DNA of 64,000 nucleotides, taken from positions 372,001-436,000 of the forward strand of contig NZ_RKLQ01000001.1 of the NCBI RefSeq assembly GCF_019599405.1, read 5' to 3'. Source of the stretch: Haloarcula salinisoli (GTDB lineage Archaea; Halobacteriota; Halobacteria; Halobacteriales; Haloarculaceae). The notes under the pieces were generated by a model, which saw nothing but the letters and a program-made list of their open reading frames with translations, had not been told where the DNA came from and did no database searches. This document shows, one piece after another, positions 8,213 through 47,529 of the stretch (position 1 is the first letter of the stretch; each line of letters starts with the position of its first letter). The translations under genes and the position numbers were made by a program.

Positions 8213-9424
8213 ATGAGCACGCAGGTACACGCTACACTCAGCGAAGACGCAGTCGAACAGATATCCGAAGACCTCGGGGAGCCCGAGTGGCTGCTGGAGA
8301 CGCGCAAGGACGCGCTCGCGGCCCTGGACGACCTCGAGATGCCCGACGTCATCCAGACGCCGGGCCGGAAGTGGACCAACCTCGACGCGCTCGACTACGA
8401 GACGCTCGTCGACCCGCTCGACTACGCCCAGGACAAGGACCGCATCGACGCCGAGGGCGTCGACGTCCTCTCCTGGAGCGACGCGCTCGACGAGCACGGC
8501 GAGCTCATCGAGGACCACTTCGGGAGCGTCGTGGACACCGAGCGGGACTACCTGACTGCGCTGTCGACGGCGCTGTTCTCCGCCGGGACGGTCGTCTACG
8601 TCCCCGAGGGCGTCGACGCCGAGGACGTGAAGATCCGGACGACGATGAACAGCCGGTCGCTGTTCAACTACACGCTCGTCATCGCCGAGGAGTCCGCTTC
8701 CGTCACCATCCTGGAGCGCCAGACCACCGGCGAAGACACCGAGGGCGACCAGTACTACTCGGGCGTCGTCGAAGCCGTCGCAGGCGAGAACGCCTACGTC
8801 CAGTACGGCACGCTCCAGAACCTCTCGGAGGAGAGCTACAACTACCAGGTCAAGCGCGGCCACGCCGACACCTACGCCTCTATCGACTGGATCGAGGGCA
8901 ACATCGGCTCCCGCCTGACCAAGTCCAGTGTGGAGACGCGCCTGCTCGGTGACTCCTCGGAGTCCCAGATCGTCGGCGCGTTCTTCGGCCACGACGACCA
9001 GCACGTCGACATCGCGGCGCGTGTCTGGCACGAGGCCGAACACACCGTCGCCGACCTCGTGACCCGCGGCGTCCTCGACGACGAGGCCCGCTCGGTGTAC
9101 GAGGGCGTCCAGGACGTCGGCACCGAGGCGTGGGACACCAGCTCCTACCAGCGTGAGAACACCCTCATGCTTAGCGACGACTCCGAGGCCGACGCGTCCC
9201 CGAAGCTCATCATCAACAACCACGACACCGAGGCCTCCCACTCCGCGACGGTGGGCCAGGTCGACGCCGAGGACATGTTCTACATGACCTCCCGCGGTGT
9301 CCACCCCGAGAAGGCGAAGAACATGCTCGTCGAGGGCTTCTTCGTCCCTGTGCTGGAAGAGGTCGCGGTCGACGAACTCCGCGAGGACCTCGACCAGCTG
9401 ATTTACGAGCGTCTCCGCGAGTGA
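8213..9424 (+). CDS. sufD: SufD, Fe-S cluster assembly partner of SufB
   Basis: 403-residue SufD, paralogue of SufB with the same beta-helix and C-terminal helical domain (SRGVHPEKAKNMLVEGFFVP). It pairs with SufB on the SufC dimer and is linked to iron entry in the bacterial complex. The start is 2 bp after the sufB stop, indicating translational coupling. The last codons and stop read CCGCGAGTGA. This 10 bp string recurs at 9653-9662 inside the hairpin array that begins right here, so the stop codon is part of the first repeat unit. Confidence 0.96.
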   Translation: MSTQVHATLSEDAVEQISEDLGEPEWLLETRKDALAALDDLEMPDVIQTPGRKWTNLDALDYETLVDPLDYAQDKDRIDAEGVDVLSWSDALDEHGELIEDHFGSVVDTERDYLTALSTALFSAGTVVYVPEGVDAEDVKIRTTMNSRSLFNYTLVIAEESASVTILERQTTGEDTEGDQYYSGVVEAVAGENAYVQYGTLQNLSEESYNYQVKRGHADTYASIDWIEGNIGSRLTKSSVETRLLGDSSESQIVGAFFGHDDQHVDIAARVWHEAEHTVADLVTRGVLDDEARSVYEGVQDVGTEAWDTSSYQRENTLMLSDDSEADASPKLIINNHDTEASHSATVGQVDAEDMFYMTSRGVHPEKAKNMLVEGFFVPVLEEVAVDELREDLDQLIYERLRE

Positions 9425-32146: not shown

Positions 32147-32162
32147 CGTGCCCTTCGGGGAG

Positions 32163-32169
32163 TTTATTA
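32163..32169 (+). promoter_or_regulatory. TATA box of proS
   Basis: TTTATTA, centred 27 bp before the ATG at 32193; indicates a leaderless transcript. Confidence 0.6.
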
Positions 32170-32192
32170 GCGCCCTGGGCCACCCTCCGACA

Positions 32193-33647
32193 ATGAGTGG
32201 CGAGCAGGAACTCGGTATCACGGAGAGCAAGGAGCATTCACCCGGCGAGTGGTACGCCGAGGTCGTCCAGAAGGCCGGCCTCGCGGACTACGCCCCCATG
32301 GGCGGCTTTATCGTCACGAAACCGCGCGGCTACGCGGTCTGGGAGCGCATCCAGAACCACCTGGACGGCTGGTTCAAAGAGACCGGCGTCCAGAACAGCT
32401 ACTTCCCGATGTTCATCCCCGAGAGCTTCCTCGAACGGGAGAAAGACATCGTGGAAGGGTTCGACCCGGAGGTCGCGTGGGTCACCCACGGCGGCCACGA
32501 GGAACTGGAGGAACGGCTCGCCGTGCGACCGACGAGCGAGTCCATCATCGCACCCTTCATGGCCGACTGGACGCGCTCGCACCGTGACCTCCCGCTGCGG
32601 CTGAACCAGTGGTGTTCGGTCGTGCGCTGGGAGGCCACCGAGACGAAGCCGTTCTTCCGCACCAAGGAGTTCCTCTGGCAGGAGGGCCATACGGCCCACA
32701 CCGACGAGGACGGTGCGTGGGACGAGACGATGACCCGTCTCGAACAGTACAAGCGCCTCTACGAGGAAGTCATGGCGATGCCGGTGATGGAGGGGCGCAA
32801 GCCCGAGCACGACAAGTTCCCCGGCGCCCACACGACCACGACAGTCGAGGCGCTGATGCCCGACGGGAAGTCCGTCCAGGGCGGGACCTCCCACTATCTG
32901 GGCACCTCATTCGCCGAGGCCTTCGACATCACCTACGCCGACGAGAACGAGGAGGACAACGTCGCCCACACGACCTCGTGGGGTCTGTCCTGGCGCGCGA
33001 TGGGTGCGCTCATCATGACCCACTCCGACGACCAGGGGCTCGTCCTGCCGCCTGCCGTCGCGCCGACCCAGGTCGTCATCGTCCCCATCTGGCAGGAAGA
33101 CACCAAAGACGAGGTCCAGGAGTACGCCGCCGACCTCGCCGTCGACCTGGAGGACGCGGGCGTGCGGGTCGAACTCGACGACCGCGACCACCGCAACCCC
33201 GGATTCAAGTACAACGAACACGAGCTCAACGGCGTTCCCCTGCGTGTCGAGGTCGGTCCCCACGAGGTCGAGGACGACGAGGCGACGCTGGTCCACCGCC
33301 CCGACGGCGAGACCGAGACCGTCTCCCGCGAGGGTATCGGCGACACCGCCTCCGAGCATCTCGACACCGTCCACGCCAAACTGTACGCCAGCGCCGAGGA
33401 GACCCTCGAAGGGGAGATTCGCGAGGCCGACTCCCGAGAGGAGATTCTGGGCACCATCGGCCAGCACGGCGGCTACGTCAAGTGTGGCTGGTGTGGCGAC
33501 GAGGACTGCGAAGACCCTATCAAGGACGCCATCGCCGCCGAAATCGTGATGGTCCCGCTGGACCGCGACGAGGAGCCGGTCCACGACGAGTGTGCTATCT
33601 GCGGTGACGACGCAGAAGAGACGGCGTACTTCGCGAAGAGCTACTGA
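32193..33647 (+). CDS. proS: Prolyl-tRNA synthetase (archaeal/eukaryotic type)
   Basis: 484-residue class II synthetase charging tRNA-Pro. Motif 1 lies near YAVWERIQNHLDGWFKE. Motif 2 is NQWCSVVRWEATETKPFFRTKEF. Motif 3 is the GALIMTHSDDQGLVLPP region with its class II Arg just before (LSWRAMG). The anticodon-binding domain follows from about residue 290. The C-terminal zinc-binding extension has CGWCGDEDC and CAICGDD and ends in the family-typical KSY. Start set by the TATTA box. The last codons and stop (AAGAGCTACTGA) are repeated at 34051 after the hairpin array. Confidence 0.97.
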   Translation: MSGEQELGITESKEHSPGEWYAEVVQKAGLADYAPMGGFIVTKPRGYAVWERIQNHLDGWFKETGVQNSYFPMFIPESFLEREKDIVEGFDPEVAWVTHGGHEELEERLAVRPTSESIIAPFMADWTRSHRDLPLRLNQWCSVVRWEATETKPFFRTKEFLWQEGHTAHTDEDGAWDETMTRLEQYKRLYEEVMAMPVMEGRKPEHDKFPGAHTTTTVEALMPDGKSVQGGTSHYLGTSFAEAFDITYADENEEDNVAHTTSWGLSWRAMGALIMTHSDDQGLVLPPAVAPTQVVIVPIWQEDTKDEVQEYAADLAVDLEDAGVRVELDDRDHRNPGFKYNEHELNGVPLRVEVGPHEVEDDEATLVHRPDGETETVSREGIGDTASEHLDTVHAKLYASAEETLEGEIREADSREEILGTIGQHGGYVKCGWCGDEDCEDPIKDAIAAEIVMVPLDRDEEPVHDECAICGDDAEETAYFAKSY

Positions 33648-34062
33648 CAGCAGACGCCGAGCGTCGCGAGGCGTTCGACCGAATCCGAACGTAGTGAGGA
33701 TTCGGCCTTTTTCATCGCCGGGAGAGCAACGCTCTCCCGTGCTCGCACTCGCTGTGCGAGTGCGACCGACGTTCGCAAGCGCGAAGCGCTTGCGAGGCCA
33801 GCAGAAATCGAAGATTTCTGCGGGCGTTTTTCAAGGAGTGATCGCCAGTGGCGACCCGACGTGGTTCGGAAGACCGGAGGTCTTCCGTCATTGCGGGAAA
33901 TCGGAGATTTCCCGCTTGCAGTCAGAACTCTCCGAGTTCTGACGACATCACCAGAACACACAGTGTTCTGGTTAGCAGCCAGAGATCTTTGATCTCTGGA
34001 TACATCACGAGAGAGCAAAGCTCTCTCGAACGACAGACAAAGGTCGGCCCAAGAGCTACTGA
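33636..34062. repeat. Array of 12 different perfect hairpins bounded by a 12 bp direct repeat carrying the proS stop
   Basis: AAGAGCTACTGA occurs at 33636-33647 (end of proS) and again at 34051-34062. Between them are 12 hairpins, most with 8-10 bp perfect stems and 3-nt loops: 33679-33705 (11-nt loop GAACGTAGTGA), 33720-33738, 33743-33765, 33773-33795, 33801-33821, 33842-33854 (5 bp), 33867-33887, 33893-33915, 33921-33943, 33950-33972, 33979-33999 and 34008-34028. The stems are unrelated: GGGAGAGC, TCGCACTCGC, GCAGAAATC, CGGAAGACC, ACCAGAACAC, CCAGAGATC, CGAGAGAGC and so on. Gaps are mostly 4-8 bp. The array fills the space to within 5 bp of the convergent stop. Confidence 0.92.
33679..33712 (+). 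terminator. Likely proS terminator: hairpin plus T-run
   Basis: CCGAATCC/GGATTCGG with an 11-nt loop, then CC and TTTTT at 33708-33712. A second T-run (33827-33831) follows the fifth hairpin. Either could be the U-rich site used by aCPSF1. Confidence 0.55.
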
Positions 34063-34066
34063 GCGA

Positions 34067-34924
34067 CTATCGGTTCTCGTCCGGCCAGCTGCCGGCCGGG
34101 TCGTCGTCGCTCCCATCGGCGTCGGTCTGGTCGTCTGACTCGGTGGATACATCGCTCGTGTCGGCGGTCGACGGCCCGTCGAGTGCGGCGTCGTCGCCCT
34201 GCCAGGGGTCGTCTTCCCGCCAGTCGTCGTCGCCGGGCTGTGTCGTGAGGTTCTCCTCGTCGTCCTCGCCCCGGTTCTCCAGGTAGACACGACTGACGGC
34301 CAGGCTAGTTATCGGCCGCAACACTGCACTGAACGGTGCCAGTCCGAGGAAGACCGTGAACAGGGCCTCCCGGTCGTTCACGAGCAAGGCCACAGGACTG
34401 GCGAGGGTAAACAGCAAAACCCCGAGGACGGTTCCGCCCACGATACCCGTCACCAGATGGATACCGAACAGCTTCAGGAGGTTCCCCTCGGCGACCTCCC
34501 AGCTCGTCGAGAGACTGTCGCTCACGCCGAGGTCGTCGACGACGCAGGCCGCCCCCGAGAGCCCGAGTCGGAGTGCGATGTAGATGCCCGGGATGACGAA
34601 GAAGACGAGGCCAACGACCGTCGCGATGGCGGCGACGATACCGATACCGACCAGTGTCGGCGTCCGCCGGACGACGGTCCCGATGTGGTCGGCGACCGCC
34701 GGCGACCGCCCGGCGGCCAGGTCGTCCGCCGTCCGGAACGCGACGCCGCTGGCGATCAGCGACAGCAGCGACCCGAGAAGCGAGACGAGGGCGTTCAACT
34801 GGCCGGCCGCGCTGACGAGGGCGACAATAAGGAAGAGCCCGGCGAGTGCGGGGGCCTTCGGGAGCCACCCCGCTGCGGTGGTGAGCGTCTCGATGGCGTT
34901 CTGGCGGTGGACTCGCTCGTTCAT
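34067..34924 (-). CDS. Multi-pass membrane protein with acidic C-terminal tail (DUF7847-like)
   Basis: 285 residues. About five to six transmembrane segments lie between residues 25 and 205 (PALAGLFLIVALVSAAG, GIGIVAAIATVVGLVFFVIPGIYIALRL, GIVGGTVLGVLLFTLASP). SLSTSWEVAEGNLLKLFGIHL is the polar gate-like segment shared with the protein at 9778. The last 75 residues are strongly acidic and probably disordered (Asp, Glu, Thr, Ser). No enzyme motif. It converges on proS across the hairpin array. Function unknown. Confidence 0.8.
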   Translation of the reverse strand: MNERVHRQNAIETLTTAAGWLPKAPALAGLFLIVALVSAAGQLNALVSLLGSLLSLIASGVAFRTADDLAAGRSPAVADHIGTVVRRTPTLVGIGIVAAIATVVGLVFFVIPGIYIALRLGLSGAACVVDDLGVSDSLSTSWEVAEGNLLKLFGIHLVTGIVGGTVLGVLLFTLASPVALLVNDREALFTVFLGLAPFSAVLRPITSLAVSRVYLENRGEDDEENLTTQPGDDDWREDDPWQGDDAALDGPSTADTSDVSTESDDQTDADGSDDDPAGSWPDENR

Positions 34925-47265: not shown

Positions 47266-47529
47266 AACAGCCAGAAAGCCCCGGCGGGCTCCGGTCGGGG
47301 GACTCGTTGCGCTCCTCGGCCTTCGGCCTGCGGTGCTTACTTCGTCCGCCTTCCCGGAGCCCGCCGCCCCTTTCAGTCCCGTCCATGCCGGCTGACCAAC
47401 CGGCTATGGGTGGACTGAAAGGGGCGGCCAGCTACACGAAGGCAGGCGACGTAAGCACTGGAACGAACGGAGTAAGTGAAGGGCGCAGCGAGCCTCCCGA
47501 GTGCAGCTGGCCGGGGCTTTCCGGCTGTT
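47266..47529. repeat. Paired inverted copies of a ~115 bp structured repeat
   Basis: The outer ends AACAGCCAGAAAGCCCCGGC (47266-47285) and GCCGGGGCTTTCCGGCTGTT (47510-47529) are inverted repeats with one mismatch. The inner ends GCCGCCCCTTTCAGTCC (47363-47379) and GGACTGAAAGGGGCGGC (47412-47428) are a perfect inverted pair. So two units of 114 and 118 bp face each other around a small hairpin (CCATGCCGG / CCGGCTATGG). Within the left unit GGCGGGCTCCGG pairs with CCGGAGCCCGCC; within the right unit (reverse strand) GGCCAGCT pairs with AGCTGGCC. It lies between divergent peptidase and glycosyltransferase genes. Confidence 0.85.

Follow-up and report, generated by a model that had tools for sequence, protein, structure and literature searches.

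A hairpin array behind proS in Haloarcula salinisoli as a probable copy of a class-wide, transposase-free family of DNA hairpin repeats in haloarchaea

REPINs and BIMEs are the nearest known kind of element to the hairpin array that lies behind the proS gene of Haloarcula salinisoli (PMC3116915, PMC3733652). Like these elements, arrays of the kind found behind proS are dispersed, extragenic, clustered hairpin repeats free of a transposase, in which a short palindromic unit recurs mostly outside genes and conserved outer parts enclose a variable inner part with compensated changes (PMC3116915). They differ from REPINs and BIMEs in their units of about 21 bp with a 3-nt loop, in the mixing of many stem families within one array and in having no linked dedicated RAYT transposase; no association with a RAYT/Y1 transposase was found. 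GTAG- and CGTC-tagged REPs, which have been described in bacteria, share with the arrays stems of 5-13 bp, short loops, clustering and intragenic copies, whereas in haloarchaea the loop is almost fixed at 3 nt and obeys a DNA triloop rule (PMC3733652). No terminal GTAG or CGTC tag stands out by eye among forty sites. Within the haloarchaea, the MITEs, PATEs and SMRs of Haloquadratum walsbyi offer a precedent for numerous transposase-free mobile repeats with palindromes, strain-specific insertions and nested elements (PMC3119063). PATEs and SMRs show no target duplication and carry one or two palindromes or terminal inverted repeats; by this description the proS array stands apart, with a 12-bp flanking repeat, ten hairpins and no terminal inverted repeat (PMC3119063). 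The lack of terminal inverted repeats is a feature that it shares with PATEs and that separates it from SMRs and MITEs, while the 12-bp repeat, which may have arisen as a target duplication, sets it apart from PATEs. Several hairpins after a stop codon are also known from bacterial hairpin clusters, proposed as intrinsic terminators; in the available portion of PMC8355165 these are inferred RNA terminators, whereas the haloarchaeal arrays also occur within genes and in divergent regions and have DNA-type loops. In the open-access literature we found no earlier description of these arrays, nor of their loop rule, mixed stem vocabulary and gene-end copies.

The window, by which we mean the whole 64,000-nt stretch of H. 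salinisoli DNA that was analysed, contains proS (prolyl-tRNA synthetase; 32148-33647, plus strand; Pfam tRNA-synt_2b, HGTP_anticodon and ProRS-C_1) and, convergent with it, a gene for a predicted membrane protein with weak, below-cut-off matches to UPF0259 and DUF7847 (34067-34924, minus strand); gene positions, including the proS start, come from our own simple gene caller. Between the two genes, 310 bp (33719-34028) hold ten perfect hairpins, all with a stem of 9-10 bp and a 3-nt loop; their starts follow each other at 24-30 bp with the exception of one larger gap. Dinucleotide shuffles of the array stretch (n = 1000) gave a mean of 0.05 such hairpins and a maximum of 2, and single-strand DNA folding of the array reached z = -15.4 against shuffles. 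A chance origin of the run is ruled out by the shuffles and by the loop statistics set against a matched background. The first-pass annotation had counted twelve hairpins, which is a fair count once the ten are joined by a hairpin whose 8-bp stem encloses an 11-nt loop and precedes CCTTTTT (33679-33712), and by weak hairpins such as that at 33842-33854. At a cut-off of E = 1, no Rfam 15 covariance model matched 33500-34200, and over the whole window tRNA was the only match.

The array is bounded by two copies of AAGAGCTACTGA on the plus strand, at 33636-33647 and 34051-34062, and by no terminal inverted repeat that we could find. A check of the whole 4.03-Mb genome located AAGAGCTACTGA at these two places only, which bears out the reported 12-bp direct repeat; the proximal copy consists of the proS codons K-S-Y-stop and the distal one is an orphan copy of the gene end. 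Five modules lie between the copies, all read on the plus strand. M1 (33649-33714), similar pieces of which occur elsewhere, contains the hairpin CCGAATCC/GGATTCGG (33679-33705, 11-nt loop) and then CCTTTTTCAT with its T-run (33708-33712). It is followed by two hairpins to which no strand is assigned, CGGGAGAGC with loop aac (33719-33739) and TCGCACTCGC with loop tgt (33743-33765). M2 (33766-33831) comprises TCGCAAGCGC with loop gaa (33773-33795) and GCAGAAATC, also with loop gaa (33801-33821), then GGGCGTTTTT. M3 (33859-33955) is made of CGGAAGACC with loop gga (33867-33887), GCGGGAAATC with loop gga (33893-33915) and GTCAGAACTC with loop tcc (33921-33943), joined by the linkers TCATT, TTGCA and GACATC. 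A part of M4 (33944-34002) carries ACCAGAACAC with loop aca (33950-33972), CCAGAGATC with loop ttt (33979-33999) and the linker TAGCAG, and M5 (34003-34044) carries a class-wide unit, CGAGAGAGC with loop aaa (34008-34028). GACAAAGGTCGGCCC (34036-34050, plus strand) stands immediately ahead of the second gene-end copy.

Is the array an isolated feature? Over the 1.26 Mb of the genome that was surveyed in stretches, 3-nt-loop hairpins with stems of at least 9 bp number 138, against 13-35 for each other loop length from 4 to 12, and arrays of two or more hairpins number 38, a count that leaves out two places in C2 (746472-746569 and 757955-758051), each with about 80 overlapping loop-3 hairpin calls, that are probably simple repeats. 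Most arrays are intergenic, some lie in divergent or tandem regions and some inside genes. Stems such as CGAGAGAGC, CGAAAGGCGC and CGTGGCGGC recur with different loops. Among 145 Halobacteria genomes, 88 carry the pattern CGAGAGAGC-NNN-GCTCTCTCG, as do 39 of 58 genera, and the control with the reversed pattern gave 0 matches; the copy number of the CGAGAGAGC unit is highest, at 18, in H. salinisoli. Modules of the proS array have counterparts at other sites in 59 of 77 family genomes, other genomes having been read in part, and copies of M3 that are 82-86% identical exist in three other family genomes. Phage records gave no match to the array, and plasmid records gave a single one, in Halomicrobium urmianum (query 448-556), which corresponds to M3. 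The stems, which had been called unrelated, fall instead into families (for instance GTCAGAACTC, ACCAGAACAC, CCAGAGATC and GCAGAAATC) whose linkers and outer pairs are conserved and are met again in many genomes. Unlike the proS array, other arrays have ACAGCCAGAAAGCCCC/GGGGCTTTCTGGCTGT at their boundaries. As a separate observation, GCCAGAAAGCCCC, a terminal inverted repeat that bounds several other arrays, is matched four times in the window, where 0.04 matches would be expected (25969, 47270-47525 and 58886), the pair 47270/47513 being in inverted orientation.

The loops of these hairpins obey a rule. The loop-closing base is C in 119 of 121, 84 of 86 and 377 of 387 array hairpins, and in 63%, 71% and 77% one of the two strands reads GNA or AAA in the loop, compared with 11-12% in a matched background. 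In tandem intergenic regions the GNA/AAA-type loop falls on either strand irrespective of gene direction (33 sense, 35 antisense). DNA minihairpins with a GNA loop are unusually stable (Hirao 1994 and Yoshizawa 1997, as cited in PMC6479982), and the loop and closing pair of such minihairpins, C-GNA-G, are those favoured by the arrays. As far as the account in PMC6479982 goes, the minihairpins are known from oligonucleotide chemistry, whereas the arrays constitute a genomic repeat family; we found no earlier report in the open-access literature of a GNA loop as the rule for such a family. The loop rule and strand independence point, short of proof, to formation or selection of the array hairpins as DNA rather than as RNA.

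This bears directly on a different reading, in which the array is a zone of transcription termination or RNA 3'-end processing at which transcripts from both proS and the neighbour gene stop, aCPSF1 possibly taking part. The two genes are convergent, and T-runs follow two of the hairpins, and only those two, at 33679-33712 and 33801-33830, as an archaeal intrinsic terminator would have it. In Haloferax volcanii, T-stretches terminate transcripts and one hairpin gave 59% termination (PMC7237163). By analogy, the two hairpins with their T-runs could terminate proS transcription. Ten hairpins, however, go far beyond what a terminator needs, arrays of the same kind occupy divergent and tandem regions and the interior of genes, and their loops are of the DNA type with no strand preference relative to genes. 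RNA processing or termination as the primary function is unsupported, and we judge this explanation distinctly unlikely.

The internal organization of the arrays bears on how their pairing is kept. At forty matching sites the linkers appear in a fixed order, for example tggtt-[hairpin]-tcatt-[hairpin]-ttgca-[hairpin]-gacatca-[hairpin]-aacgac. Linkers and outer stem pairs are conserved between copies, while the inner stem and loop vary with complementarity kept: GTCAGA is followed by ACTC, ACGC or TTCC, and the complement is always found on the opposite arm. Units picked by linkers alone are fully paired far above shuffled units for 8 of 9 linker pairs, many of the units that lack pairing being chance hits of short linkers. 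When units were picked by the left linker and left arm only, pairing exceeded partner shuffles for several linkers. Among orthologous hairpins that have changed between the two species compared, 6 of 18 and 5 of 23 remain fully paired, compared with 8 of 266 and 8 of 244 in a control made up of all hairpins with stems of at least 6 bp. Selection for pairing could yield the same pattern as fold-back copying.

The array sites can be compared with those of a sister species. The genome of Haloarcula rara is 89% identical and largely syntenic in the parts compared. For 15 of the 19 arrays with anchors at either end, the corresponding gap in H. rara holds no loop-3 hairpin, and reciprocally 11 of 15 anchored H. 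rara arrays have none in H. salinisoli; these differences record presence or absence, and either gain or loss is possible for each array. Genes are affected too: a histidine kinase gene has a 99-bp in-frame insert relative to H. rara, in which AAEH codons occur three times around the hairpins (C1:439829-439875), and a second called gene differs by 93 bp from H. rara at a clean array site. At C2:867400-868000, the 5' end of a GTP-binding protein gene is duplicated upstream, the extra copy having a two-hairpin insert and the intact copy none. No such array lies behind proS in any other Haloarcula genome for which this flank was read. The site measures 1382 bp against 151 bp in H. rara, a difference that includes the next gene, and since the genus offers no close orthologue of this neighbour gene, no DNA-level counterpart of an empty proS site with the same right-hand neighbour was found there. 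In one genome (G023), a 39%-identical homologue of the neighbour gene sits close behind proS with no array between them. For this locus, a mobile hairpin element with diversification by arm-copying had been suggested; its mobility is favoured by the sites polymorphic between sister species and by the class-wide dispersal of modules, and stems altered with pairing kept are compatible with arm-copying, which may account for them.

The same comparisons weigh on the idea that the array is maintained by the host for protein binding or as cruciforms, with gyrase, a nucleoid protein or a structure-specific nuclease as the partner, along the lines of roles proposed for bacterial BIMEs. DNA-type loops, the 24-30 bp spacing of hairpin starts (one larger gap excepted) and the conservation of outer stems and linkers across the family would all suit such a function. 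Most sites, however, are not common to sister species, and the exact common unit is absent from 57 of 145 genomes; judged from sequence, a host-maintained array appears very improbable.

The duplicated gene end at proS has counterparts elsewhere. A gene 3' end with its stop codon is repeated beyond hairpins at proS (12 bp), at a gatB-like gene (37 bp), at C1:55655 (23 bp), at C1:61068 (56 bp) and at C1:267851 (about 45 bp), and the gatB-like gene has a 37-bp overlap at an empty site in H. rara. Direct repeats flank 9 of 38 arrays compared with 4 of 114 random places. The last four amino acids and stop codon are copied within 800 bp downstream for 23 of 2033 called genes, against 1.6 expected, and several of these genes have no loop-3 hairpin in between. 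In two other species the proS end recurs independently 131 bp downstream, and AAAGGTCGG precedes proS-end copies in genomes G018 and G005 too. Downstream of a sufD-like gene (8213-9424), the segment 9400-9660 contains tandem RLRE-stop copies that serve as hairpin arms and use synonymous codons and different stop codons; sufD end copies are present in about half of 30 Haloarcula genomes, with sequences that differ between genomes. At C1:536512, at C1:791299 and at 191623 in a reverse-complemented H. rara segment, two to four downstream copies of the C-terminal codons and stop are seen with no or few loop-3 hairpins between them. In four of four cases ATGAAAAAGGTG (ACG in one of them) is fused in-frame to the gene-end copies, too few to interpret. 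With lengths that vary from 12 to about 56 bp, the repeated ends do not resemble a classical target duplication. Because end copies of varied length occur at many genes, some of them without loop-3 hairpins, and because of the sufD copies, a wider gene-end duplication process fits the 12-bp repeat at proS better than a target duplication of fixed length. The earlier proposal of an insertion exactly after the stop codon with duplication of the target gains by analogy from other arrays flanked by copied gene 3' ends and from the gatB-like empty site, but has no empty proS site to rest on.

Could such copies mean that the array simply grew in place? In purely local growth, no mobile unit would be involved: replication slippage and template switching at the site itself would copy the gene end and generate the hairpins. 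The variable length of the gene-end copies, the hairpin-free cases, the sufD tandem copies and the repeats with synonymous differences are in keeping with this scenario, yet the same modules and linkers appear at unrelated sites in many genera, and large multi-hairpin insertions are found at single sites relative to H. rara. We consider purely local growth unlikely.

Which enzyme might act on these units? The H. salinisoli genome has one Y1_Tnp match, and a scan of its surroundings showed no hairpin array. Three hairpin-rich genomes gave no match to the IS200-type transposase family, on which ground an IS200-type transposase as a requirement was rejected. No dedicated RAYT transposase linked to the arrays was found.

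Based on these observations, we propose that the proS array is probably one copy of a haloarchaeal, class-wide, transposase-free family of mobile repeats, REP/REPIN-like mosaics of short DNA hairpins. During replication or recombination the units would take the form of single-stranded DNA hairpins or cruciforms, in which they function and spread; one arm would serve as the template for the other in fold-back (snap-back) copying, so that the variable tips stay paired, and some further activity would insert the modules. A mosaic of about five modules may have been gained behind proS in the H. salinisoli lineage, a gain that would have duplicated 12 bp or more of the proS 3' end; the T-tracts of the array may end proS transcripts as a by-product. 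More tentatively, we speculate that across haloarchaea fold-back copying of single-stranded DNA keeps rewriting the hairpin tips, in which case perfect pairing and the C-GNA-G loop would themselves result from the copying, and that gene 3' ends are duplicated and replaced by this activity as well.

What would such a family mean for haloarchaea? They would possess a common, fast-changing repeat that is free of a transposase, and the loop rule would point to single-stranded DNA hairpins in living cells. As sister genomes exist with and without the same arrays, the origin, the movement and the upkeep of pairing of short hairpins become directly testable, and the same genomes make the origin of duplicated gene 3' ends testable as well. 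Long runs of hairpins behind haloarchaeal genes are not necessarily terminators.
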